DNA of 64,000 nt, from NCBI RefSeq assembly GCF_036010665.1, contig NZ_CP108581.1, forward strand, positions 3,143,501 to 3,207,500, in the 5' to 3' direction. The notes beneath the pieces were generated by a model. That model was not told the origin of the DNA. It ran no database searches and saw only the letters and a program-made list of their open reading frames with translations. This DNA comes from Microbispora sp. NBC_01189 (GTDB taxonomy: Bacteria > Actinomycetota > Actinomycetes > Streptosporangiales > Streptosporangiaceae). Shown piece by piece: positions 17,721-26,818 of this stretch. The position numbers and the translations under genes are program-made. Position 1 is the stretch's first letter. The number at the start of each line of letters is the position of its first letter.

Positions 17721-18557
17721 TCATCGGCCGTTGACGGAGAAGTGCTGGTAGTCGCGGGCGCCCGACCAGGTGCCGCCCCAGCCCCAGCCGATGCTCGCGA
17801 AGGCGCGCACCACGCGGTCGCCCCTGTTGATCACGCCGGGCTTCTTCAGCGGTCTGTCCACGAACGCGTCCGCGTTGCGGTGCGCGTTGCTCCCGTCCGC
17901 CTCCACGTATGGGTTCTCGCGCGGGTTCAGGTCCACCGCCAGCCCGTACGCGTGGTTGGACCAGCTGCCCGATCCCGTGGCGTTGCGGCAGTTGAAGGCC
18001 GAGGTGTTGTCCGCCTCGATGGAGTCGAAGTCGCTGCCCTTGTAGACGTCGACGGGCTCCATCCGCCGGATGGGATAACGCATGTCGTACAGCTTTCCGA
18101 AGACCGACGCGACGTCCTCGGCCACCGATTTGCCGACCACGAGCGTGCCGGTGTGCGCCTTGTCGTCGAAGCCCCAGTAGGTCATCGTGATCTTCCGCAG
18201 ACCGCTCGGCGCCACCGGGCAGCCGGGCCGCCAGGAGTGCGGCAACTCGTCCCGGGACACCTTCTCGATTTTCGAGGAGAAGGCGGGCGGGCCGCTCGGG
18301 CTCGGTGTGCCGTCGTCCTCCGGAGCGGACGGGGCGGGCGTGGCCGGGGGCGTCGCGGACACGGGGTCGGTGGACACGGGCGTGACGGCGGCCGGGGAGA
18401 GCGGCGCCGCCGGTGACGTGACGGCGACGGGCGTCGACGTCCGGGCGGCTGCGGAGGCGGCGCCTCCGGCCTCGGGGCCTGCCGCGCCGCCACAGCCGGT
18501 CACGCCCACCAGCGTCGCTATCATCACCGCTGACCTGCGGTTCTTCAATAAGCCCAT
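17721..18557 (-). CDS. M15 family metallopeptidase lipoprotein (D-Ala-D-Ala carboxypeptidase-like)
   Basis: The start MGLLKNRRSAVMIATLVGVT leads into a lipobox (VTGC) near residue 19, so the protein should be lipid-anchored on the outer face. A Ser/Thr/Pro-rich spacer of about 60 residues follows. The C-terminal domain has the M15 zinc signature in SNHAYGLAVDLNPRENPY (His and Asp seven apart) and the closing DYQHFSVNG. Substrates are expected to be peptidoglycan peptides. It is divergent from an Lgt-fold gene, which is suggestive because lipoproteins need Lgt. Confidence 0.85.
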   Translation of the reverse strand: MGLLKNRRSAVMIATLVGVTGCGGAAGPEAGGAASAAARTSTPVAVTSPAAPLSPAAVTPVSTDPVSATPPATPAPSAPEDDGTPSPSGPPAFSSKIEKVSRDELPHSWRPGCPVAPSGLRKITMTYWGFDDKAHTGTLVVGKSVAEDVASVFGKLYDMRYPIRRMEPVDVYKGSDFDSIEADNTSAFNCRNATGSGSWSNHAYGLAVDLNPRENPYVEADGSNAHRNADAFVDRPLKKPGVINRGDRVVRAFASIGWGWGGTWSGARDYQHFSVNGR

Positions 18558-18733
18558 AGGCGCAGAGTACCCGCGGCCGCAGGATGCGCCGACGGTTGTG
18601 CACAACCTGTGGATAACCCGCCCCCGAAATGCTCACCCGCCTTCTCGGATGGGAGACTCCCAGGCGTGCGTACCCGGCCCGGCCCGGAAACCGAGGATCG
18701 GAAACGTCGGAAGCCGCCGCTAGGGTGGCGTGC

Positions 18734-19564
18734 GTGATCGAGGAACTGCGCTTCGGCGGGGTGAGCGTGCCGGCCCACGCTTTCTTCGTGGGCCTCGGCG
18801 TGGTCCTCGCCAGTGTGGTGTTCGTCCTGGAGGCGCGCCGCAGGGGAGCGCTGCGTGAGGAGTCGCTGGTGGCGGTCACCGGCGCGCTCGTCGGCGGAGC
18901 GGTGGGCATGCGGCTGTCCGGCTGGGCCGAGCACCTCGACCCCACGCTGAACCCCGGGATCGTCGAGGCGTGGATGTTCGGCGCCCGGAGCATCCTCGGC
19001 GGGCTGACCGGCGCTTACGTCGGCGTGCTGGTGGCGAAGCGGCTGATCGGCTACCGGGAGCGGACCGGCGACCTGTTCGCTCCCGCCGTCGCGATCGGCA
19101 TGGCCGTCGGCCGCGTCGGCTGCTTCCTCACCGAGGCCCCCGGCCGCCCCACCACTCTTCCCTGGGGAGTCCACGCGCCCGCGACCGTCCCCGAGTGCCC
19201 CGGATGCCTGGCCGGGCAGGCCATGCACCCCTCGTTCCTCTACGAGGTCGTCTTCCAGCTCGCCGCCTTCGGCGCGCTGCTGTGGGCGCGCGGCCGCCTC
19301 GACCGGCCGGGCGAGCTGTTCACCCTCTATCTGGGCGCGTACGCCGTGTTCCGGTTCCTGGTCGAGTTCACCAGGGCGAACGAGACGGTCTGGCTCGACC
19401 TGACCCGCCCGCAGTGGTTCCTGATGCCGGGCCTGGCGCTGCTCGCCGTCCGGCTGGCGTATGGCTGTCGCAAGGGGTTCTACGACAGGCTGCTCCCGGG
19501 GCGGGGTGAGCGGCCGCTCTTAACGGGAGTACGGCTTTCGCCTGTCGGCGAGGAGGACAGATGA
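18734..19564 (+). CDS. Prolipoprotein diacylglyceryl transferase-fold protein (Lgt paralogue with altered active site)
   Basis: This is a protein of about 276 residues and seven membrane segments with the Lgt layout. The Lgt signature normally reads GRIGNFINGE; here it is GRVGCFLTEAPGR, with Cys in place of the invariant Asn. The HGG motif reads LGG (RSILGGLTGAYVG). The C-terminal FRFLVEFTRANE block retains the Arg and Glu. By eye it is a divergent paralogue and may not lipidate proteins. It starts at GTG 18734 with AGGGTGG upstream. Its stop overlaps the next ATG (ATGA), beginning a coupled operon with the radical SAM gene. Confidence 0.82.
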   Translation: MIEELRFGGVSVPAHAFFVGLGVVLASVVFVLEARRRGALREESLVAVTGALVGGAVGMRLSGWAEHLDPTLNPGIVEAWMFGARSILGGLTGAYVGVLVAKRLIGYRERTGDLFAPAVAIGMAVGRVGCFLTEAPGRPTTLPWGVHAPATVPECPGCLAGQAMHPSFLYEVVFQLAAFGALLWARGRLDRPGELFTLYLGAYAVFRFLVEFTRANETVWLDLTRPQWFLMPGLALLAVRLAYGCRKGFYDRLLPGRGERPLLTGVRLSPVGEEDR

Positions 19565-20112
19565 GCACACCCCCCGAGCCGCCCGAGCGGCCCGAGCAGC
19601 CCGAGCAGCCCCAGGACCCCCGGCCGGGCGACCCACCCCCACCCCCCGACCAGCCCCCACCTCCCGGCGAAGCCCAGGGTGGCGCACCCGGTCCCGGAGG
19701 GTCATATGGTCCGGGTGGTGGTTCCGGCCCCGGCGGGCCGTACGGCCCGGACGGCGGGGCGCCCTACGCGTGGCCGCCACCGCCGCCGCGGCAGGAGAAC
19801 ACCACCGGAGTGGTGATCGCGCTGACGTTCGCGGGCGTCGTGCTCGAAGTGATCGTCAACTCGATTCTCGCCGTCGCCACCCTGGCGGCCGCCGACAGCC
19901 TCGGCGCTCACAAGGAGATAGCGGTCGTGGGCGGGGCCGTGATCCTGGCGGCGATCGTCTTCGGCGGCGGGACGCTGCTGATCCGCCGCCGGCAGCCGTG
20001 GTCACGGGGGCTCGGGCTCGGCCTGATGATCGGGTGGGCGCTCGTGACGATCCTCAGCGCCGGTTTCTGCACCGGCGTCAACACCTCGCTCTACACGGAC
20101 GGCGGACTGTGA
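19561..20112 (+). CDS. Proline-rich N-terminus membrane protein
   Basis: The first 80 residues are Pro/Gly/Glu-rich and low-complexity (PPEPPERPEQPEQPQDPRPG; GGSYGPGGGSGPGGPYGPDG). Three hydrophobic segments follow (VVIALTFAGVVLEVIVNSIL; IAVVGGAVILAAIVFGGGTL; GLGLGLMIGWALVTILSAGF). It overlaps the genes on both sides (ATGA at the front, GTGA at the end) and so is translated with them. It has no recognised family; it may anchor or scaffold the radical SAM enzyme at the membrane. Confidence 0.75.
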   Translation: MSTPPEPPERPEQPEQPQDPRPGDPPPPPDQPPPPGEAQGGAPGPGGSYGPGGGSGPGGPYGPDGGAPYAWPPPPPRQENTTGVVIALTFAGVVLEVIVNSILAVATLAAADSLGAHKEIAVVGGAVILAAIVFGGGTLLIRRRQPWSRGLGLGLMIGWALVTILSAGFCTGVNTSLYTDGGL

Positions 20113-21677
20113 CCATGGGAATGCCCCTGCGGGGGGACCGGATACTCCGCTACGTCAACGCGTTCTGCCCCCGCTGTCACGAGGAGCGGCCGGACCGCCC
20201 GCTGGCTGAGGTGCCGCGGCTGTCCGGCTGGCTGGCCGCCCGTGACGGCCGCGTCTACCTGGAGCGCGGCTGCCGGGCGCACGGCATGGTCAGGACCCTC
20301 TACGACGAGGACCCGGAGATCCTCGCCTACCTGGAGGAGTGGACCGCTCCGACCAAGGCCCACCTGCCCGACGTCGCGGGCAACTTCGACCCGATCCCGG
20401 AGGCGTACCTGCGGGGTCTGCCGGAGATGCAGACGCAGCACACGTGCACCCTCCTGGAGGACGTCGCGGAGTCGTGCAACCTGCGCTGCCCGACCTGCTT
20501 CACCGAGTCCTCGCCCGACCTGCGGGGAGTCGTCCCGGTCCGGGAGATACTCGCCAATGTCGACCAGCGGCTGTCCCGGGAGAACGGCCGGATCGACGTG
20601 CTCATGCTCAGCGGCGGCGAGCCGACGCTCCATCCCGATCTGCCCGAGTTGCTCGCCGAACTGGTGGCGCGGCCCGTCACCCGCATCCTCGTCAACACGA
20701 ACGGCCTTCTGGTGGGCAGGGACGACGCCCTGCTCGACCTGCTCACCGAGCACCGCGAGCGCGTCGAGGTCTACCTGCAGTACGACGGCGTGTCCGCCGA
20801 GGCGTCCCGGCACCACCGGGGCGGCGATCTGCGGCGGCAGAAGGCGGAGGCGCTGCGCCGGCTGTCGGAGCGGGAGATCTTCACGACCCTGGTGATGACG
20901 GCCGCGCTCGGCATCAACGACGGCGAGATCGGCGACGTGGTGCGCCTGGCTCTCGACACGCCCTACGTCGGCGGCGTGTCGATCCAGCCGCAGTTCGGCT
21001 CGGGACGGTCCGGCGCGATCGACCCCATGGACCGGCTCACCCACACCGGCGTGCTGAAGCGCCTCGGCCCCCAGACCGACGACCTGGTCACCTGGCGCGA
21101 CCTCACCGCACTGCCCTGCTCGCACCCGCACTGCTGCTCGGTCGGCTACATGGTCAGGGACGACGCCGACCGGTGGCGCTCGCTGACGGCCCTGATCGGC
21201 CACGACCGCCTCAAGGAGAACCTCGGCCTGGTCTCGAACCGGATCGCCGACCCGGAGATCCCCCGCCAGCTTCGCATGGCTGTTCAGGAGTCGCTGCTCG
21301 GCCTGTTGTCGGAGCAGTCGTCGCTGTCCCACCCCGAGATCGGGAAGGTCTGGCGCGACATCTGCGAGAACTGCGACCTCGGGCTGACGACCCTGCTGAC
21401 GCTCGCGTCGTCGGTGCTGCCCGGCCGGCAACGGCGCCTGCGGAAGCTGCTCGGCGAACGGGTCGTGCGGATCACGATCAAGCCGTTCATGGACATGTCC
21501 ACCATGCTGGAGGAGCGCCTCACCCAGTGCTGCGTACACGTCGGCACCCGTTCCGACCAGGACCAGTGCGCGCCGTTCTGCGCGGTCCAGGCCTGGCCGG
21601 CGCTCGCGCGCCAGCGCCTGTCCGCCGTCGCCTCCGCCGACACCGGCGTACGGCTGCCGCTCGTGGAGATCACGTGA
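20109..21677 (+). CDS. Radical SAM enzyme resembling tetraether lipid synthase (Tes/MJ0619-like)
   Basis: The radical SAM cluster motif CNLRCPTCF lies at about residues 123-131 and is followed by the MLSGGEPTLHPDLPELL glycine-rich SAM site. An N-terminal CPRCH pair (near residue 20) and several late Cys groups (PCSHPHCCSVGY, ICENCDLG, QCCVHVG, CAPFCAVQAW) suggest a rubredoxin-like site and auxiliary Fe-S clusters. This resembles archaeal Tes, which joins lipid tails through C-C bonds. The start is GTG 20109 overlapping the previous stop. Context with an Lgt-fold protein and two membrane proteins argues for a lipid substrate. The family call is firm; the reaction is inferred. Confidence 0.82.
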   Translation: MTMGMPLRGDRILRYVNAFCPRCHEERPDRPLAEVPRLSGWLAARDGRVYLERGCRAHGMVRTLYDEDPEILAYLEEWTAPTKAHLPDVAGNFDPIPEAYLRGLPEMQTQHTCTLLEDVAESCNLRCPTCFTESSPDLRGVVPVREILANVDQRLSRENGRIDVLMLSGGEPTLHPDLPELLAELVARPVTRILVNTNGLLVGRDDALLDLLTEHRERVEVYLQYDGVSAEASRHHRGGDLRRQKAEALRRLSEREIFTTLVMTAALGINDGEIGDVVRLALDTPYVGGVSIQPQFGSGRSGAIDPMDRLTHTGVLKRLGPQTDDLVTWRDLTALPCSHPHCCSVGYMVRDDADRWRSLTALIGHDRLKENLGLVSNRIADPEIPRQLRMAVQESLLGLLSEQSSLSHPEIGKVWRDICENCDLGLTTLLTLASSVLPGRQRRLRKLLGERVVRITIKPFMDMSTMLEERLTQCCVHVGTRSDQDQCAPFCAVQAWPALARQRLSAVASADTGVRLPLVEIT

Positions 21678-21699
21678 GCCGCCGCGGCCCGGTGCCGGC

Positions 21700-22131
21700 G
21701 TGAACCCCGGCACCGGGCCGCGGGCGGGCGACCGGCCGGGTGACCAGCGCCCGGACGACCAGCGGCCGGACGATCACCCCACCGGCGTCGCCTACGAGCA
21801 GGCCCTCGCCGCCCGGGGCCGTACGCCCGGCCAGGCCCCGGCAAACGGGCAGGCCCCGGCGGACGGAGCTCCAGCGGACGGGCCGGCGCAGCCGTACGAT
21901 CCGCTGAAGCTGTGCGTCTACGCCACGGTGGCGCTGCTCGCCTGGCTGTTCGGAGCGTGGGCGGTGCTGGCCTTCGCCGTCCTGGGCGTCGCCGGATACT
22001 GGCGGGCCCGCCGCGCGGGGCTCACGCGGAGCAAGTGCTATCTCCGCGACACCCGGCTCGTCCTCGCCTACCTGGGACTGGTCGCCCTGGCCGCCGCCGC
22101 GGCCCTCGTGCTCCCGCACGTGTCGCGTTAG
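21700..22131 (+). CDS. Small two-TM membrane protein of the radical SAM operon
   Basis: This is a 143-residue protein. A polar, repetitive N-terminus (DQRPDDQRPDDHPTG; PANGQAPADGAPADG) precedes two membrane helices (LCVYATVALLAWLFGAWAVL, AYLGLVALAAAAALVLPH) with a basic loop between them. The GTG start lies 22 bp after the radical SAM stop, on the same strand. I do not recognise the family. Position suggests a fourth member of the lipid-modification operon. Confidence 0.6.
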   Translation: MNPGTGPRAGDRPGDQRPDDQRPDDHPTGVAYEQALAARGRTPGQAPANGQAPADGAPADGPAQPYDPLKLCVYATVALLAWLFGAWAVLAFAVLGVAGYWRARRAGLTRSKCYLRDTRLVLAYLGLVALAAAAALVLPHVSR

Positions 22132-22348: not shown

Positions 22349-23317
22349 ATGGCTGTCGCCCAGAAAGCAGACTGGTCCGGCATCGGCTGGGACGACTGGA
22401 AGAGTCTGCGGCTGATCCGTGCCCGGCTCGACGCGGGCGCCGATCCGAACTCGGAGCTGTTCTTCCACGGACGGCCCCTGCACGCGGCCGCGGAACGCGG
22501 CGCTCCGGATGTGGTGGCGGAGCTGGTCCCCCGCGTCGACGACGTGGATGCCGAGCACGAGGGCCGCATGGCACTGTGGAAGGCCGTTTTCGCCAACCGT
22601 CCGGACAATGCCCGGATCCTGGCCGAGGCCGGTGCCGATCCGTGGCGGCCGATGATGAACGGCTGGTCGCCCGGACGGCTGAGCCTGGCCACGCCGACCC
22701 CTGACCTGTTCGCTCTTCCCGCAGGGCAGACGGGGCTTTCCGAAGACGAGCTCAATGCGGTGGCGGAGGCTCGGCGTCTCGTCGACGCGTTGGGCGATTT
22801 CTACTACGACGGGCTGAGCCTCGCCTGCGTGGCCGGCGTCACCGCGGCCGAGGCGGTACGCCGCCTGGAGGCCGTCCCCGTCGACGGCGCCGAAGTCGAA
22901 GAGCTCTTCGAAGACGACATCTTCGAGAACTTCGACGAGAGCCTCGAGATCGTCGGCGTCACGGATGTGCCCGGCGGTTGTGTCGTCACCCAGCCGTGGG
23001 GATACATGTCGTCCACCCCCGGCCTCACGAAGCGCCTGTCGGCGGGGACCGTCTGCTACGCCATGTACGCCAATCCCAAGAGCGGTAACCAGGGCAGTTT
23101 CACCCGGGACGGCGAGATCGTGGAGTGGGACACCCACCCCGGTGGTGGCCACCCATCGTCAGAGGACTCCGCCGAGGAGATCCTCAACAGCTACCTCTTC
23201 CGTGGACGAGCGATCGCGTACTGCTGCGCGGTCGTGGGCCTGCGGCTGACGGACGCCGACGCCGTCGAACGGCCCGGCATGTGGGTGAGGCTCCCCGAAC
23301 GCGACTACTGGAGCTGA
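22349..23317 (+). CDS. Ankyrin-repeat-like protein (322 aa)
   Basis: The first 90 residues contain ankyrin-like helices (LRLIRARLDAGADPNSELFF, then GRPLHAAAERGAPDVVAELV, then LWKAVFANRPDNARILAEAG). The remainder (from about residue 105) is acidic and of unknown fold, with EVEELFEDDIFENFDESLEI and a later VTQPWGYMSSTPG segment. Ankyrin repeats mediate protein binding. The start ATG 22349 follows GAGGGAG; the open frame extends 40 codons further up without coding character. It is probably monocistronic. Confidence 0.78.
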   Translation: MAVAQKADWSGIGWDDWKSLRLIRARLDAGADPNSELFFHGRPLHAAAERGAPDVVAELVPRVDDVDAEHEGRMALWKAVFANRPDNARILAEAGADPWRPMMNGWSPGRLSLATPTPDLFALPAGQTGLSEDELNAVAEARRLVDALGDFYYDGLSLACVAGVTAAEAVRRLEAVPVDGAEVEELFEDDIFENFDESLEIVGVTDVPGGCVVTQPWGYMSSTPGLTKRLSAGTVCYAMYANPKSGNQGSFTRDGEIVEWDTHPGGGHPSSEDSAEEILNSYLFRGRAIAYCCAVVGLRLTDADAVERPGMWVRLPERDYWS

Positions 23318-23691
23318 CCACCACGCTGAACTACGGTGTTTGGCGGAGCTTTTTCGCCGAACGCTCGCGCACATGTTCGATGAGGCGCTACAGTCTTGGG
23401 CATCGGATCGAACACGGGTTCGGTCGAGTCCCGGCAGGTGAGGAGTGTGCGATGGCTGTGCCGACGGTGTCCGCCGCCCCCGCTCCCACTCCCGCTTCCG
23501 GCCTCGCCGGCCCGGCTGCGTTGGATCGCGGCGTACCGTCCCCGGCTCCGCCCGTCGTCGTCCCGGTCGTGCCGGCCCAGGCTCCGCCCGCCGCCGTGCG
23601 GTGCGTGCCGGGGCCGCGCCGGGCGACACGCCGTAGCGCTTTCTACGGAAATCTACGACGGCCGCTATATCCCGTCATAAAGTCCGAGAGC

Positions 23692-24873
23692 GTGGACCCC
23701 GTGCGCAACCCCTACGCCCCCGGCGCCGGACAGCGCCCCCCGGAGCTCGCCGGCCGCGATCGCGAGCTCCAGCAGTTCGAGGTCGTGCTGGAGCGGGTGG
23801 CCCGGGGCCGCCCGGAGCGGAGCATGGTCCTCACCGGCCTGCGCGGTGTGGGCAAGACGGTCCTGCTCAACACCTTCAAGTCCATGGCCATGCAGCGGCT
23901 GTGGGGCACCGGGAAGATCGAGGCCAGGCCCGACCAGTCGATCCGCCGCCCGGTGGCCGCCGCGATGCACATGGCCATCAGGGAGCTCGCGCCCCGGCAC
24001 CGCGCCCCCGAGCGCATCGAGGAGTTCCTCGGCGTGCTCAAGGCGTTCGCCATGCGCGATCCCGCCGCCGCGAAGGGCACGTCCCACTGGTCGCCCGGCA
24101 TCGACGTCCCCGCCGCCCGCGGCCGGGCCGACTCCGGCGACCTGGAGATCGACCTGACCGAGCTGTTCGTCGACGCGGCGGGCGTGGCGACCGATCTCGG
24201 CGTCGGCATCGCGCTGTTCATCGACGAGATGCAGGACGTGCAGGCGCCGGACGTCTCGGCCCTCTGCGCGGCCTGCCACGAGCTGTCGCAGAGCGGCGGC
24301 CCGCTGATCGTCGTCGGCGCCGGCCTGCCGCACCTGCCGAGCGTGCTGTCGGCCAGCAAGAGCTACTCCGAGCGGCTGTTCCGGTACGCCCGCATCGACC
24401 GGCTCGACCGCGACGCCGCCGACCTGGCGCTGATCGTCCCGGCCGGCCGAGAGGACGTGGAGTTCACGCCCGACGCGCTCGACGCGCTGTACGAGGCGGC
24501 CGACGGCTACCCCTACTTCGTCCAGGCGTACGGGAAGGTCGCCTGGGACCTCGCGCCCCGCAGCCCGATCACCGCCGAGGACATCAAGGTGTCCGCGCCG
24601 GAGGCGGAGGAGGAGCTCGCCGTCGGCTTCTTCGGCAGCCGCTACGAACGGGCCACCCCCGCCGAGCGCGACTACATGCACGCGATGGCCCAGCTCGGCG
24701 ACGACCCGGTGCCGACGGCCGAGGTGGCCGAGGCGCTCGGCCGCAAGCCGTCGAGCCTGTCCCCGGCCCGCGACAGCCTGATCAAGAAGGGCCTGATCTA
24801 CAGCGCGGAGCGCGGCGTGATCGGGTTCACCGTCCCCCATTTCGGGAGGTTCCTGCGTGCCCAGCCGGTCTGA
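23692..24873 (+). CDS. AAA-family ATP-binding protein
   Basis: This is a protein of about 393 residues. The Walker A sequence is GLRGVGKTVLL (about residues 49-59) and Walker B is IALFIDEMQDV. A sensor/arginine region and a C-terminal winged-helix-like segment follow (EVAEALGRKPSSLSPARDSL, then IKKGLIYSAERGVIGFTVPH). Proteins of this layout are common, uncharacterised ATPases in actinobacteria, distantly like ORC/archaeal ATPases. I chose GTG 23692 (VDPVRNPYAPG), where conserved sequence begins. The frame is open for 189 further codons with low-complexity translation, which I regard as noncoding. Two hairpins follow the stop. Confidence 0.8.
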   Translation: MDPVRNPYAPGAGQRPPELAGRDRELQQFEVVLERVARGRPERSMVLTGLRGVGKTVLLNTFKSMAMQRLWGTGKIEARPDQSIRRPVAAAMHMAIRELAPRHRAPERIEEFLGVLKAFAMRDPAAAKGTSHWSPGIDVPAARGRADSGDLEIDLTELFVDAAGVATDLGVGIALFIDEMQDVQAPDVSALCAACHELSQSGGPLIVVGAGLPHLPSVLSASKSYSERLFRYARIDRLDRDAADLALIVPAGREDVEFTPDALDALYEAADGYPYFVQAYGKVAWDLAPRSPITAEDIKVSAPEAEEELAVGFFGSRYERATPAERDYMHAMAQLGDDPVPTAEVAEALGRKPSSLSPARDSLIKKGLIYSAERGVIGFTVPHFGRFLRAQPV

Positions 24874-24952: not shown

Positions 24953-25004
24953 GCGGGAATCTACGCCTGTATAGCGTCAGGCCGATACAGGGGTAGATTC
25001 CCGC
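24953..25004. terminator. Second long hairpin overlapping the end of the MauE gene
   Basis: Arms 24953-24972 and 24985-25004 match at 19 of 20 positions around a 12-base loop. The right arm encodes the last residues of the minus-strand MauE-like gene, whose stop at 24977-24979 lies in the loop. The arrangement fits a bidirectional terminator between convergent genes. Confidence 0.65.
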
Positions 25005-25849
25005 AGAGAGGCGTCCGTACGGTCGCCGGTGGTGGCCGCGACGCGGCCGTCCGCCCCGACCACGGCGGCGCGGACGGCGGGACGGCGTCCGCTCAGATAC
25101 ACGGCGAAGACCACCTCGGCGCCCTCCTGGGCGGGGAACACGAAGAAGCGCCAGCACAGCTCGCGCCACATGTCGGACGGCTCACCCGTCAGCAGCGACT
25201 CCGCGTGCGCCCGCCACGCCGCACTGGCGCGTAGACGGGACAGCGCCCGCCCGGGAGGCAGCGGCCGCTGCTCGCACGGCGCCCGGTGCCGTACGCGGGC
25301 GACGACCTCGTCGACCTCCGGCGAGAGGGCGAGCAGCACCAGGACGAGGCCGCCGGCGACCCAGGCCGCCGTCCCCCGCGGCAGGCCGGCCGGCCCCATG
25401 AGCCCGGCCGAGGTGTTCAAGGTGTTGCCCACCGCGACGTTCCCCACCGCGACGAGGACCGCCATCGCCGTCAGCGCGGCGGCCCGTCCGATCGACCGCA
25501 GCCCGACCGGCGCCGCGCTGACCTCGCCGAAACAGCCGCACCCGACGTCGGGCCGCCGCCTGCGCAAATCCCACAGGACATACGTCGCGATCGCGAAGAA
25601 CACCACCGGCGACCAGCGCGTGACGGGGTGGTCCACCACCAGCGATCCGCCGGCCAGGGCGAACTCGGTCAGCGCGCAGGCGAGCATCGCGGGCCTGGCG
25701 AAGCGCTCCGGCGCGAGCGCGACCGGGCCCAGCCGGGTCAGCGCGCCCGGCGACGCCTCACGCCCGGACGTGGCCAGCTTGGCGACGCCGCCCAGTGTCA
25801 GCGTCAGGGCGAGGACCGGCAACGCGGCCGTCGCGATGATCGTAAGCAC
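24977..25849 (-). CDS. MauE/DoxX-like redox-associated membrane protein
   Basis: This is a 290-residue protein. The first 170 residues form about four membrane helices with the MauE hallmark GCGCFG between helices (DVGCGCFGEVSAAPVGLRSI). The C-terminal 110 residues are soluble and of unknown function, ending in VGADGRVAATTGDRTDASL. MauE-type proteins are linked to disulfide formation or electron transfer in the envelope. The GTG start lies 3 bp after the stop of the upstream Cys-rich gene, so the two form an operon. The end is built into a terminator hairpin. Confidence 0.78.
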   Translation of the reverse strand: MLTIIATAALPVLALTLTLGGVAKLATSGREASPGALTRLGPVALAPERFARPAMLACALTEFALAGGSLVVDHPVTRWSPVVFFAIATYVLWDLRRRRPDVGCGCFGEVSAAPVGLRSIGRAAALTAMAVLVAVGNVAVGNTLNTSAGLMGPAGLPRGTAAWVAGGLVLVLLALSPEVDEVVARVRHRAPCEQRPLPPGRALSRLRASAAWRAHAESLLTGEPSDMWRELCWRFFVFPAQEGAEVVFAVYLSGRRPAVRAAVVGADGRVAATTGDRTDASLRESTPVSA

Positions 25850-25852
25850 CGG

Positions 25853-26818
25853 TCACCCCAATCCGACGCGGGCGTTGAAGCAGCCCTTGGTCAAGTCTCC
25901 CCCGAGCGCGACGTAGGACGACGCCGACAGTTCGACGATCCTCCCGCGCGGGGAGGTGCCGCATTCCAGGCAACGGTCGCAGAACCGCCCGGCGAGGCAT
26001 CCGCACGCCACGATCGGCAGCGTGTCCGCCCGCCCGTCGCACACGTTTCGTACGCGTAGCAGCGAGCCCAGCGCGAGGTACGGCAGGCCCGCGCAGGAGA
26101 CGCCCGCGTCGTCGCAGCCGGTGTCCCCGGGTTCGAGCACGGGATAGGCCGCCCCGTCCTCCGGTAGGTCCGCCCACACGGCCGTGCCCGCGACGCTGGC
26201 CTGGACTCCTCCGTACGCCGGGGGAGCCGGGGGCGATGCCGCGGCGTGGTACGGCGGCTGCGAGGTCGCGGGGAGTTGCGCCAGCGACGTGCCCTGGTCG
26301 AGCAGGCCGATGGCGTCGAACAGATAACCGGGCTCCAGCTTCGGGTGCCGTACCCGGATCCGCCCGGAGGAGCGGTAGGGGACGACGATGGAGCGTTCCC
26401 GGCGATGCGGGCCACAGTCGAGGTCCACGGTGAGATCCCGGGTGCCGCGGACGTCGCGGATGACGCCGGTGATCCGCGTGACGTCGGCCCAGACGCGCTC
26501 GGCCACCGTGCCCGAGCGCAGCGCGCGAATGACCACCCGCGACCCGATGGGCACGTCGGCGGGCGCGACCGCGCCGCCGCGCCAGGCGGTCGCCCACGGT
26601 GCGATCACCAGGCGCCGCTGCCGGCCGTCGCCGGCCGCCACGATGATCAGATGCGGGCTGACGTCGATCACCTCGCCGTCGACCACGTCGTACGGCGCCT
26701 CCTCCTCCGGCGACCGCGGCGCGGGCCCGGGATCGCGCCCGAGCGCCGCAGCGGCCAGCACGCGCCGTCGCGCTCCGGCCCGGTGCGGTAATGACCCTTC
26801 CACGTCCTCCAGCCTCAC
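25853..26818 (-). CDS. Cys-rich protein with barrel-like C-terminus, MauE operon partner
   Basis: This 321-residue protein has no named family. The N-terminal half looks like an OB/small-barrel domain (GEVIDVSPHLIIVAAGDGRQ, IGSRVVIRALRSGTV). The C-terminal half has about ten Cys (TGCDDAGVSC, VACGCLAGRFCDRCLECG) and ends SASSYVALGGDLTKGCFNAR. That ending resembles the last strands of RlpA-type double-psi barrels. I start it at GTG 26818; the open frame above is unconvincing. No signal peptide is evident, so the location is unclear. As the neighbour of MauE it is a candidate redox substrate. Confidence 0.68.
   Translation of the reverse strand: MRLEDVEGSLPHRAGARRRVLAAAALGRDPGPAPRSPEEEAPYDVVDGEVIDVSPHLIIVAAGDGRQRRLVIAPWATAWRGGAVAPADVPIGSRVVIRALRSGTVAERVWADVTRITGVIRDVRGTRDLTVDLDCGPHRRERSIVVPYRSSGRIRVRHPKLEPGYLFDAIGLLDQGTSLAQLPATSQPPYHAAASPPAPPAYGGVQASVAGTAVWADLPEDGAAYPVLEPGDTGCDDAGVSCAGLPYLALGSLLRVRNVCDGRADTLPIVACGCLAGRFCDRCLECGTSPRGRIVELSASSYVALGGDLTKGCFNARVGLG

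Follow-up and report, generated by a model that had tools for sequence, protein, structure and literature searches.

The bacterial membrane-spanning lipid synthase Mss is a radical S-adenosylmethionine (SAM) enzyme. In the excerpts of the literature on which the statements that we cite by PMC number rest throughout, Mss couples two fatty acids (PMC11868695), and the archaeal enzyme GDGT-MAS (Tes) was crystallized with archaetidylglycerol, its residues Met439 and Tyr459 being invariant in 1000 archaeal Tes homologues (PMC9433317). Bacterial Tes homologues are also in print, with a role that is unproven there (PMC8941075, PMC11868695). The prolipoprotein diacylglyceryl transferase (Lgt) of Escherichia coli was crystallized with phosphatidylglycerol (PG), and a catalytic pocket for this lipid made up of R143 and R239 has been proposed (PMC4728403); its residues Y26, H103, R143, N146, G154, and R239 are essential, and two lgt copies are present in ~1,300 genomes (PMC13251419). 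Here, we describe a four-gene module in which a divergent Lgt homologue and a radical SAM enzyme (rSAM) of the Tes/GDGT-MAS superfamily are encoded together with two small membrane proteins. It lies in a 64,000-nucleotide stretch of DNA, called the window below, of a 7.37-Mb genome of the genus Microbispora.

Co-occurrence of an Lgt-fold protein and a radical SAM enzyme

The four genes are arranged head to tail on the forward strand, in the order Lgt-fold protein, small protein with three predicted transmembrane (TM) segments, rSAM, and small protein with two such segments (Table 1). A preliminary description of this DNA had reported a Tes-like rSAM together with a divergent Lgt-fold protein and two membrane proteins, which we confirmed, and the open reading frame calls bear out the spacing that it gave, with 4-base overlaps between the first and second and between the second and third genes and a gap of 22 bases before the fourth.

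That these genes lie together more than chance would allow is seen from their distribution. Across the named loci, which are the best 80 of 346 rSAM relatives from a scan of the collection and in which gene presence was counted by tblastn, the Lgt-like gene and the second gene were each found in 79 and the fourth gene in 54. The Lgt-like gene, the second gene, and the rSAM gene stand together in 78 of the 80, and the two exceptions (L070 and L104) are at contig ends; the coupling of the Lgt-fold protein to the rSAM thus holds as that of a near-constant genomic partner. The listed Nonomuraea and Thermoactinospora loci have the order TM-Lgt-rSAM rather than Lgt-TM-rSAM with no member lost, showing that the members stay together even where their order has changed.

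Among 118 Mycobacterium genomes (in the GTDB sense), 32 carry both the rSAM and the Lgt-like gene, 85 carry neither, and one carries a broken Lgt-like gene only. The rSAM orthologue is at least 72% identical in these 32 genomes, one copy being split and one being a contig-end fragment, and both genes share a contig in every one of the 32. Among 396 Actinomycetota genomes taken across the phylum, the rSAM (58 to 100% identity) and the Lgt-like protein (43 to 100%) were found in an identical set of 10; one more genome, G259, gave an rSAM fragment interrupted by an in-frame stop, without any Lgt match. Another sample of 60 genomes yielded an rSAM orthologue in 19, including 13 of the 14 other Microbispora genomes, and copies of the module reside on plasmids of Mycobacterium avium and Mycobacterium branderi. 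The distribution is patchy, but the Lgt-like/rSAM pair is unsplit: the genome searches showed that, in the samples covered, the two genes occur together or not at all, accompanied by one or two predicted membrane proteins that contain cysteines.

Signs of decay of the module were seen in G516, where the rSAM gene is split over two frames, and in G533, where a partial Lgt-like gene with an in-frame stop is present and no rSAM orthologue was found. A locus of Nocardia aurea (L149) has the Nonomuraea-like order, and in the tree its Lgt-like protein and the one from Nonomuraea lactucae form a pair, suggesting recent transfer or contamination. In Nonomuraea lactucae, the rSAM is found on two contigs of one genome (L146 and L147), and the module may be duplicated there. 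Viral contigs gave 51 stretches that matched patterns of the Lgt-like alignment, none of which was confirmed.

Residues retained and replaced in the two partners

The Lgt-like protein matches the LGT family (PF01790, 4.7e-32) and scores 80.1 bits with TIGR00544, below the cut-off of 118.9. Its structure model shows seven long helices, of which a crude hydropathy scan flagged two segments only, and E. coli Lgt (5azb) is the sole fold match with an E value of <0.001. The structure models of the module proteins rest on shallow alignments (47 and 39 rows, 66 to 97% identical to the window protein). The linked Lgt-like proteins, which are 40 to 97% identical to that of the window, retain R143, G154, R239, and E243 in 22 of 22 cases and R246 in 21, the Persicobacter protein having Lys; HPSxLYE is retained as well. 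Conversely, Y26 is replaced by His in all 20 linked rows that span this position, N146 is replaced by Cys in 22/22, and position 103 is Leu (Met in Persicobacter). In the window protein, L88 (in LGG) and C130 (in GRVGCF) occupy the positions of E. coli H103 and N146, so that the alignment agrees with the preliminary description in finding this His and this Asn missing. Moreover, R127 and C130 are invariant in the 39 rows of the window-type alignment, as is the pair C155-x2-C158, which distant members do not have.

The loss of H103 and N146 had been taken as a sign that the protein does not lipidate prolipoproteins. This argument proved weak, and we discarded it as proof of a non-Lgt function: among 23 Lgts outside the module (19 from genomes or places without a module orthologue or from elsewhere in module genomes, and 4 from plasmids; the rSAM-linked rows L199 and L200 are not counted), Cys occurs at position 146 in 11, and position 103 varies widely, being Trp in the other Lgt of the same genome. 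Better marks of a changed Lgt, as far as alignments and trees can tell, would be Y26H, the altered signature GRxGCxLTE, the linkage to an rSAM, and the place in the tree, where the rSAM-linked Lgts separate from the 23 others with a support of 100/99. A full-scoring second Lgt (244 bits) is encoded elsewhere in the window's own genome, thus covering lipoprotein lipidation, and a further Lgt was also found in the module genomes G381, G218, and G391.

Two other Lgt-related sequences were observed. One of the 23 outside-module Lgts (L193, G430:C1:991142-991891) has the Y26H change, with His26, Leu103, and Asp146, and its genome gave no strong rSAM match (best, 6.8e-7). The window's own genome, beyond the window, contains a third, partial PF01790 match of 75.9 bits (G000:C1:3524350-3524616, reverse strand), covering profile positions 107 to 199 in an open frame of 134 amino acids.

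The rSAM matches Radical_SAM (PF04055, 1.7e-20) and Zn_ribbon_HMPTM (PF23545, 6.8e-10). Of the NCBIfam models, TrsS (NF045646, 189.3 bits) scores above Tes (NF045702, 140.5 bits), both being far under their curated cut-offs of 490 and 450 bits, respectively. The best PDB match by sequence is GDGT-MAS/Tes (7tol, 1.4e-28), and the top fold match is 7tom (Foldseek E value, 2.4e-20; 540 columns; TM scores, 0.59/0.61), obtained with a model whose mean predicted local distance difference test (pLDDT) score is 58.7 and much of which is unreliable outside the barrel. Structure prediction, which the preliminary description had proposed as a check, thus returned GDGT-MAS for the rSAM and Lgt for the Lgt-like protein, and membership of the rSAM in the Tes/GDGT-MAS superfamily is supported by both sequence and fold.

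The aligned rSAMs are 61 to 97% identical to that of the window (92 to 97% for the named Microbispora records). The N-terminal CxxC and late Cys groups noted earlier are indeed present, together with the CxxxCxxC motif. C20, C23, C55, H58, C123, C127, and C130 are invariant in the alignment, and the cluster cysteines are invariant in a second one, too. The alignment with the Methanocaldococcus jannaschii (Mj) enzyme has a numbering that reproduces the residues of PMC9433317; in it, C55 and H58 fall on C33 and H36 of the Mj enzyme, and C20 and C23 were placed by spacing, the Mj fragment beginning after C12. The GDGT-MAS residues F106, R210, Q268, and R275 are retained along with CxxxCxxC and the C-terminal CC...PFC motif, and S271 of the SAM site is a Phe in the window rSAM. 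Four further cysteines (C113, C337, C422, and C487) are invariant in the clade and have no M. jannaschii counterpart; C113 and C337 are common to most of the sister rSAMs compared. One rSAM, at L048 (811-2568, reverse strand), has an insertion of repeated DLARTRGRGSRGPERVVPGGSGGGGAPPEE-like units following its PCSHPHC motif.

As for the small membrane proteins, no Pfam family was found above cut-off for either. The second protein has a Pro/Gly-rich N terminus, three predicted TM segments, and, in 20 aligned loci, a conserved Cys170 (GxCT...NPxxY) at the end of the third segment. The fourth protein has two predicted TM segments and the conserved motifs DPLxLC and SKCxLRDTRLV. In the seven distant in-family loci (L174 to L180), the fourth gene was found in all seven, with the LC cysteine in six, and the second gene was matched, weakly, in two. 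If the positive-inside rule is applied to the hydropathy segments, Cys170 (second protein) and Cys72 (fourth protein) would both face outward, the side to which the Lgt pocket opens. Possible roles of these proteins are those of lipid acceptors, redox relays, and assembly factors.

Possible functions of the module

We tentatively propose that the rSAM of the module modifies a PG-derived lipid by radical chemistry and that the Lgt-fold protein serves as its membrane partner, an account that we place somewhat short of an even chance. A PG-derived lipid is favored because GDGT-MAS binds archaetidylglycerol and Lgt binds PG, which belong to the same headgroup class. The co-occurrence and adjacency of the genes, the overlapping Lgt-like/rSAM pair of Persicobacter described below, the retained PG-site and SAM-site residues, and the fold matches also speak for the proposal. 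The Lgt-fold protein would bind PG, or its diacylglyceryl part, via the R143/R239/E243/R246 network; instead of being the housekeeping prolipoprotein transferase, it would present the lipid or handle its diacylglyceryl group. In the cytosol, the rSAM would make the 5'-deoxyadenosyl radical and take a hydrogen from an acyl or alkyl chain, and the C-terminal cluster and the rubredoxin iron would then complete the C-H functionalization. The outcome would be an unusual membrane lipid, perhaps transferred onto a thiol of one of the small membrane proteins, and the bond formed could be C-C, C-S, double, or other.

The following points weigh against this proposal: (i) the module is known here from genes alone; (ii) the active site of E. 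coli Lgt presumably faces the periplasm (PMC4728403), and the rSAM is expected to be cytosolic; (iii) the pLDDT of the rSAM model is <50 at residues 80 to 140, 371 to 440, and 461 to 522, which is too low to judge the cluster loop or a lipid pocket; (iv) residues of Tes that are considered important for coupling are changed in the 19 actinobacterial rows, where the Fe4S4-N ligands C73, C77, and C80 are absent without exception, Met439 is always replaced by Lys, and Tyr459 is replaced by Val in 18 rows and by Ala in one; (v) the sole case outside Actinomycetota is one plasmid of Persicobacter psychrovividus (Bacteroidota), the whole-genome searches having covered Actinomycetota only; and (vi) the sister rSAMs mostly adjoin a methyltransferase, which is no obvious lipid enzyme; among the outer Actinomycetota regions (L157 to L173), a TrsM-type gene stands beside the rSAM in 12 of 17. 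With the Fe4S4-N cysteines, Met439, and Tyr459 replaced, C-C joining of chains, which had been suggested for this locus, can therefore not be inferred. The pairing itself suggests a lipid-modification system of bacteria that has not been described before. By the tests made, the rSAM is a Tes-superfamily enzyme with what the alignments suggest is an altered set of metal sites, and not a Tes orthologue; it would be expected to hold two Fe4S4 clusters and one rubredoxin iron instead of three clusters, unless a new cluster is formed by other cysteines. The interpretation first given to these genes is thus upheld for the Tes superfamily and the Lgt partnership, but not for Tes-type coupling or for the His/Asn argument.

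On the Persicobacter plasmid, the Lgt-like gene (PF01790, 7.1e-24) overlaps the Tes-like rSAM gene by 11 bases. Its Lgt groups with the rSAM-linked Lgts (support, 100/99) and its rSAM with the Lgt-linked rSAMs (93/88, or 76/81 without the outgroups and L171a, L171b, and L172), on a branch that is long in either rSAM tree. This rSAM retains C73, C77, C80, and Met439, has Ile at position 459, and has lost two C-terminal cysteines. In the trees, the rSAM clade is apart from M. jannaschii Tes, which comes near to the outcome that the preliminary description had named as speaking against it; the sole true Tes included is a single Mj fragment, whose branch is long. On the rSAM tree, one change accounts for the Lgt-linked label, and the nearest rows outside the Lgt-linked clade are the two partnerless rSAMs of L171 (82/77). 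These two L171 genes (G416:C57, 1981-3414 and 3874-5373, reverse strand) are near neighbors, and no partner of either kind was found in the 12 kb searched.

A protein-directed role is unlikely in our view but stands best among the other explanations. Here, the Lgt-fold protein would put a diacylglyceryl group on cysteines of the small membrane proteins, and the rSAM would modify the protein or its lipid. The second protein has a conserved cysteine in GxCT...NP and the fourth has conserved ones in DPLxLC and SKC, which is consistent with such acceptors, and the predicted outer-facing position of Cys170 and Cys72 matches that of the Lgt active site. Nevertheless, no lipobox was seen at these cysteines, the fourth gene was unmatched in 26 of the 80 loci, the second gene was matched, and weakly so, in just two of the seven distant loci, and no gene for a small protein was observed between the two overlapping genes of Persicobacter.

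The sister rSAMs bring in a rather less probable explanation, in which the rSAM would act on a non-lipid small molecule in the manner of TrsS and its partner would alkylate the product, adding methyl in the case of TrsM and diacylglyceryl in that of the Lgt-fold protein. Partners were sought in wider flanks by means of an Lgt-like profile, a TrsM-type methyltransferase profile, and an rSAM profile. The rSAM was found in 17/17 outer regions, and those with an adjoining TrsM-type gene are L157 to L162, L164 to L168, and L172; the rSAM reaches the contig end in L163 and L173, and neither partner is present in L169, L170, and L171. Annotated methyltransferases also adjoin the rSAM in four plasmid loci (L152, L153, L155, and L156; Mycobacterium vanbaalenii and three haloarchaea), from which the TrsM profile was built, so that their own matches are by construction. 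The Lgt-like gene is present in L174 to L181, on the two mycobacterial plasmids, and in Persicobacter, most window-clade rows being among those used to build the Lgt-like profile; no TrsM-type match at 1e-6 was found in the stretches of L150, L151, L154, and L174 to L181. One genome (G309) holds both an outer rSAM (L163) and an Lgt-linked module (L180). Ten outer rSAMs score below both the TrsS and the Tes cut-offs, TrsS being slightly above Tes.

In favor of such a TrsS/TrsM-like function, TrsS is the best NCBIfam model for the window rSAM, sister rSAMs stand beside DVU_1556/ArsM-like methyltransferases in the 12 outer regions and the four plasmid loci, and these methyltransferase-linked rSAMs likewise have neither Met439 nor Tyr459. 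However, a non-lipid substrate is itself only a possibility for TrsS, which the one paper found for it names in a table only (PMC13188914), and nothing was found linking Lgt folds to non-lipid donors. The TrsS-like/TrsM pairs of the four plasmid loci lie near CcdA, DsrE, TauE, peroxiredoxin, or thioredoxin genes.

Tes-like tail-to-tail coupling of fatty-acyl ends, with the Lgt-fold protein presenting PG, was the reading of the preliminary description and would yield diabolic-type or membrane-spanning lipids. The Tes superfamily fold and the C-terminal CC...PFC motif agree with it, and bacterial Tes homologues have been proposed, not shown, to synthesize branched glycerol dialkyl glycerol tetraethers (GDGTs) (PMC8941075, PMC11868695). 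It is doubtful nonetheless, since the Fe4S4-N ligands, Met439, and Tyr459 are all gone in the 19 actinobacterial rows and the Tes model reaches 140 of the required 450 bits. Moreover, Halobacteria have Tes homologues, yet no GDGT was reported in lipid analyses in the excerpt of PMC8941075. The published haloarchaeal Tes hits may be of the TrsS-like/TrsM plasmid type.

Still less probable, and indeed hardly to be expected, is a combined scheme in which the rSAM would draw on its sulfur-bearing C-terminal cluster to generate, on the chain of a phospholipid, a thiol or carbon radical that the Lgt-fold protein would then alkylate with the diacylglyceryl group of PG, the partner thus setting the alkyl group. 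If this were true, the alkyl group would be methyl with a TrsM partner and diacylglyceryl with an Lgt-like partner, and actinobacteria, many mycobacteria included, would contain a new class of product, namely, double phospholipids bridged through a thioether or a carbon link. Finally, an ordinary second Lgt of low lipoprotein activity beside an unrelated rSAM, as might be drawn from the retained R143 and R239 and from the presumed low Lgt activity of Mycobacterium smegmatis MSMEG_5408 (Y26H, N146C) (PMC13251419), is highly improbable given the strict co-occurrence and adjacency in distant taxa and the further Lgt in the module genomes looked at (own genome, G381, G218, and G391).

The module brings one bacterial Tes homologue and one extra Lgt together as one genetic unit. 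For the extra Lgt of many species of Mycobacterium, Nocardia, and Nonomuraea, this provides an alternative to low-activity lipoprotein modification, and named cultured strains carry the module. A new lipid, if one is found, would serve as a biomarker of large soil genera and would be one of their membrane traits. As a caution, bacterial Tes hits should not be taken as evidence for membrane-spanning lipids.

Surroundings of the module and comparison with known systems

The lipoprotein-type M15 peptidase is divergent from the module, as open reading frames and Pfam agree with the preliminary description in finding. It was rejected as a module member, being near the rSAM (within 8 genes) in 20/81 loci, in Streptosporangiaceae genera only. 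Downstream, a region on the forward strand (22349-24873) encodes an ankyrin/DUF6461 protein and an AAA_16 ATPase, the latter recurring near the module in 47 of the 81 loci, again in Streptosporangiaceae genera only. On the reverse strand (24977-26761), a MauE-like membrane protein (PF07291, 1.4e-8) is encoded beside a cysteine-rich protein that matches no Pfam family at 0.01; at a distance of up to 8 genes from the rSAM, the former recurs in 44 and the latter in 40 of the 81 loci. Other neighbors are mostly family or genus specific.

Table 1. Positions of the module genes, their principal motifs, and the divergent peptidase gene in the window
Feature	Position	Strand	Remarks
Lipoprotein-type M15_4 peptidase	17721-18605	-	Long Pro/Ser/Ala linker; Peptidase_M15_4, 4.7e-22; transcribed divergently from the module
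Lgt-fold membrane protein	18734-19564	+	GTG start, 276 aa; divergent prolipoprotein diacylglyceryl transferase homologue
Altered Lgt signature GRVGCFLTEAPG (E. coli: GRLGNFINGELWG)	19109-19144	+	R143 retained, N146 replaced by Cys
Small 3-TM protein	19561-20112	+	183 aa; hydropathy scan
Tes-superfamily radical SAM enzyme (rSAM)	20109-21677	+	522 aa; Pfam, NCBIfam, fold
Rubredoxin-type metal site C20-x2-C23 ... C55-x2-H58	20166-20282	+	Compare GDGT-MAS C9/C12/C33/H36
Radical SAM cluster motif C123-x3-C127-x2-C130	20475-20498	+	Aligned with M. jannaschii C98, C102, C105
C-terminal cluster motif CC(474/475)xH...QC(487)xPFC(491)	21528-21581	+	Val478 at the Mj Tyr459 site; Lys458 upstream at the Met439 site
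Small 2-TM protein	21700-22131	+	143 aa; hydropathy scan

Among the titles and opening lines of abstracts searched, no paper was found pairing Lgt with a Tes-like rSAM; most subscription literature lay outside this search, which is thus no proof of absence. What appears new here is a Tes-superfamily system with a new partner and a new metal-site pattern.

In 10 mycobacterial module loci, an enolase gene, recognized by eye, lies a few genes away, and the enolase gene eno of M. smegmatis is MSMEG_5415. On these grounds, and given its Y26H and N146C changes, MSMEG_5408 is probably the Lgt-like protein of the module. This second Lgt of M. smegmatis shares both changes with the module proteins, and an rSAM neighbor is not mentioned in the excerpt that describes it (PMC13251419); the tags MSMEG_5407, MSMEG_5409, MSMEG_5410, and MSMEG_5411 were not found in the literature searched.

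Compared with TrsS, the rSAM has in common the closest NCBIfam model and the absence of Met439 and Tyr459, but its partner is an Lgt-fold protein and not a TrsM/DVU_1556 methyltransferase; the Fe4S4-N cysteines, lost here, are retained in 12 of the 15 aligned TrsM-linked rows, the exceptions being the three from haloarchaea. With Tes/GDGT-MAS (MJ0619; 7tol, 7tom), it shares the full-length fold, the rubredoxin-type site, the radical SAM cluster, R210/Q268/R275, and CC...PFC, and it differs by an identity of ~20% in the structural alignment, a separate branch, the Lgt-fold partner, and the missing Fe4S4-N cysteines, Met439, and Tyr459. Similarly, the Lgt-like protein resembles E. coli Lgt (5azb) in its fold, in R143, G154, R239, E243, and R246, and in HPSxLYE, whereas Y26 is changed to His, H103 to Leu or Met, and N146 to Cys, the signature is altered, and the gene is linked to that of an rSAM.

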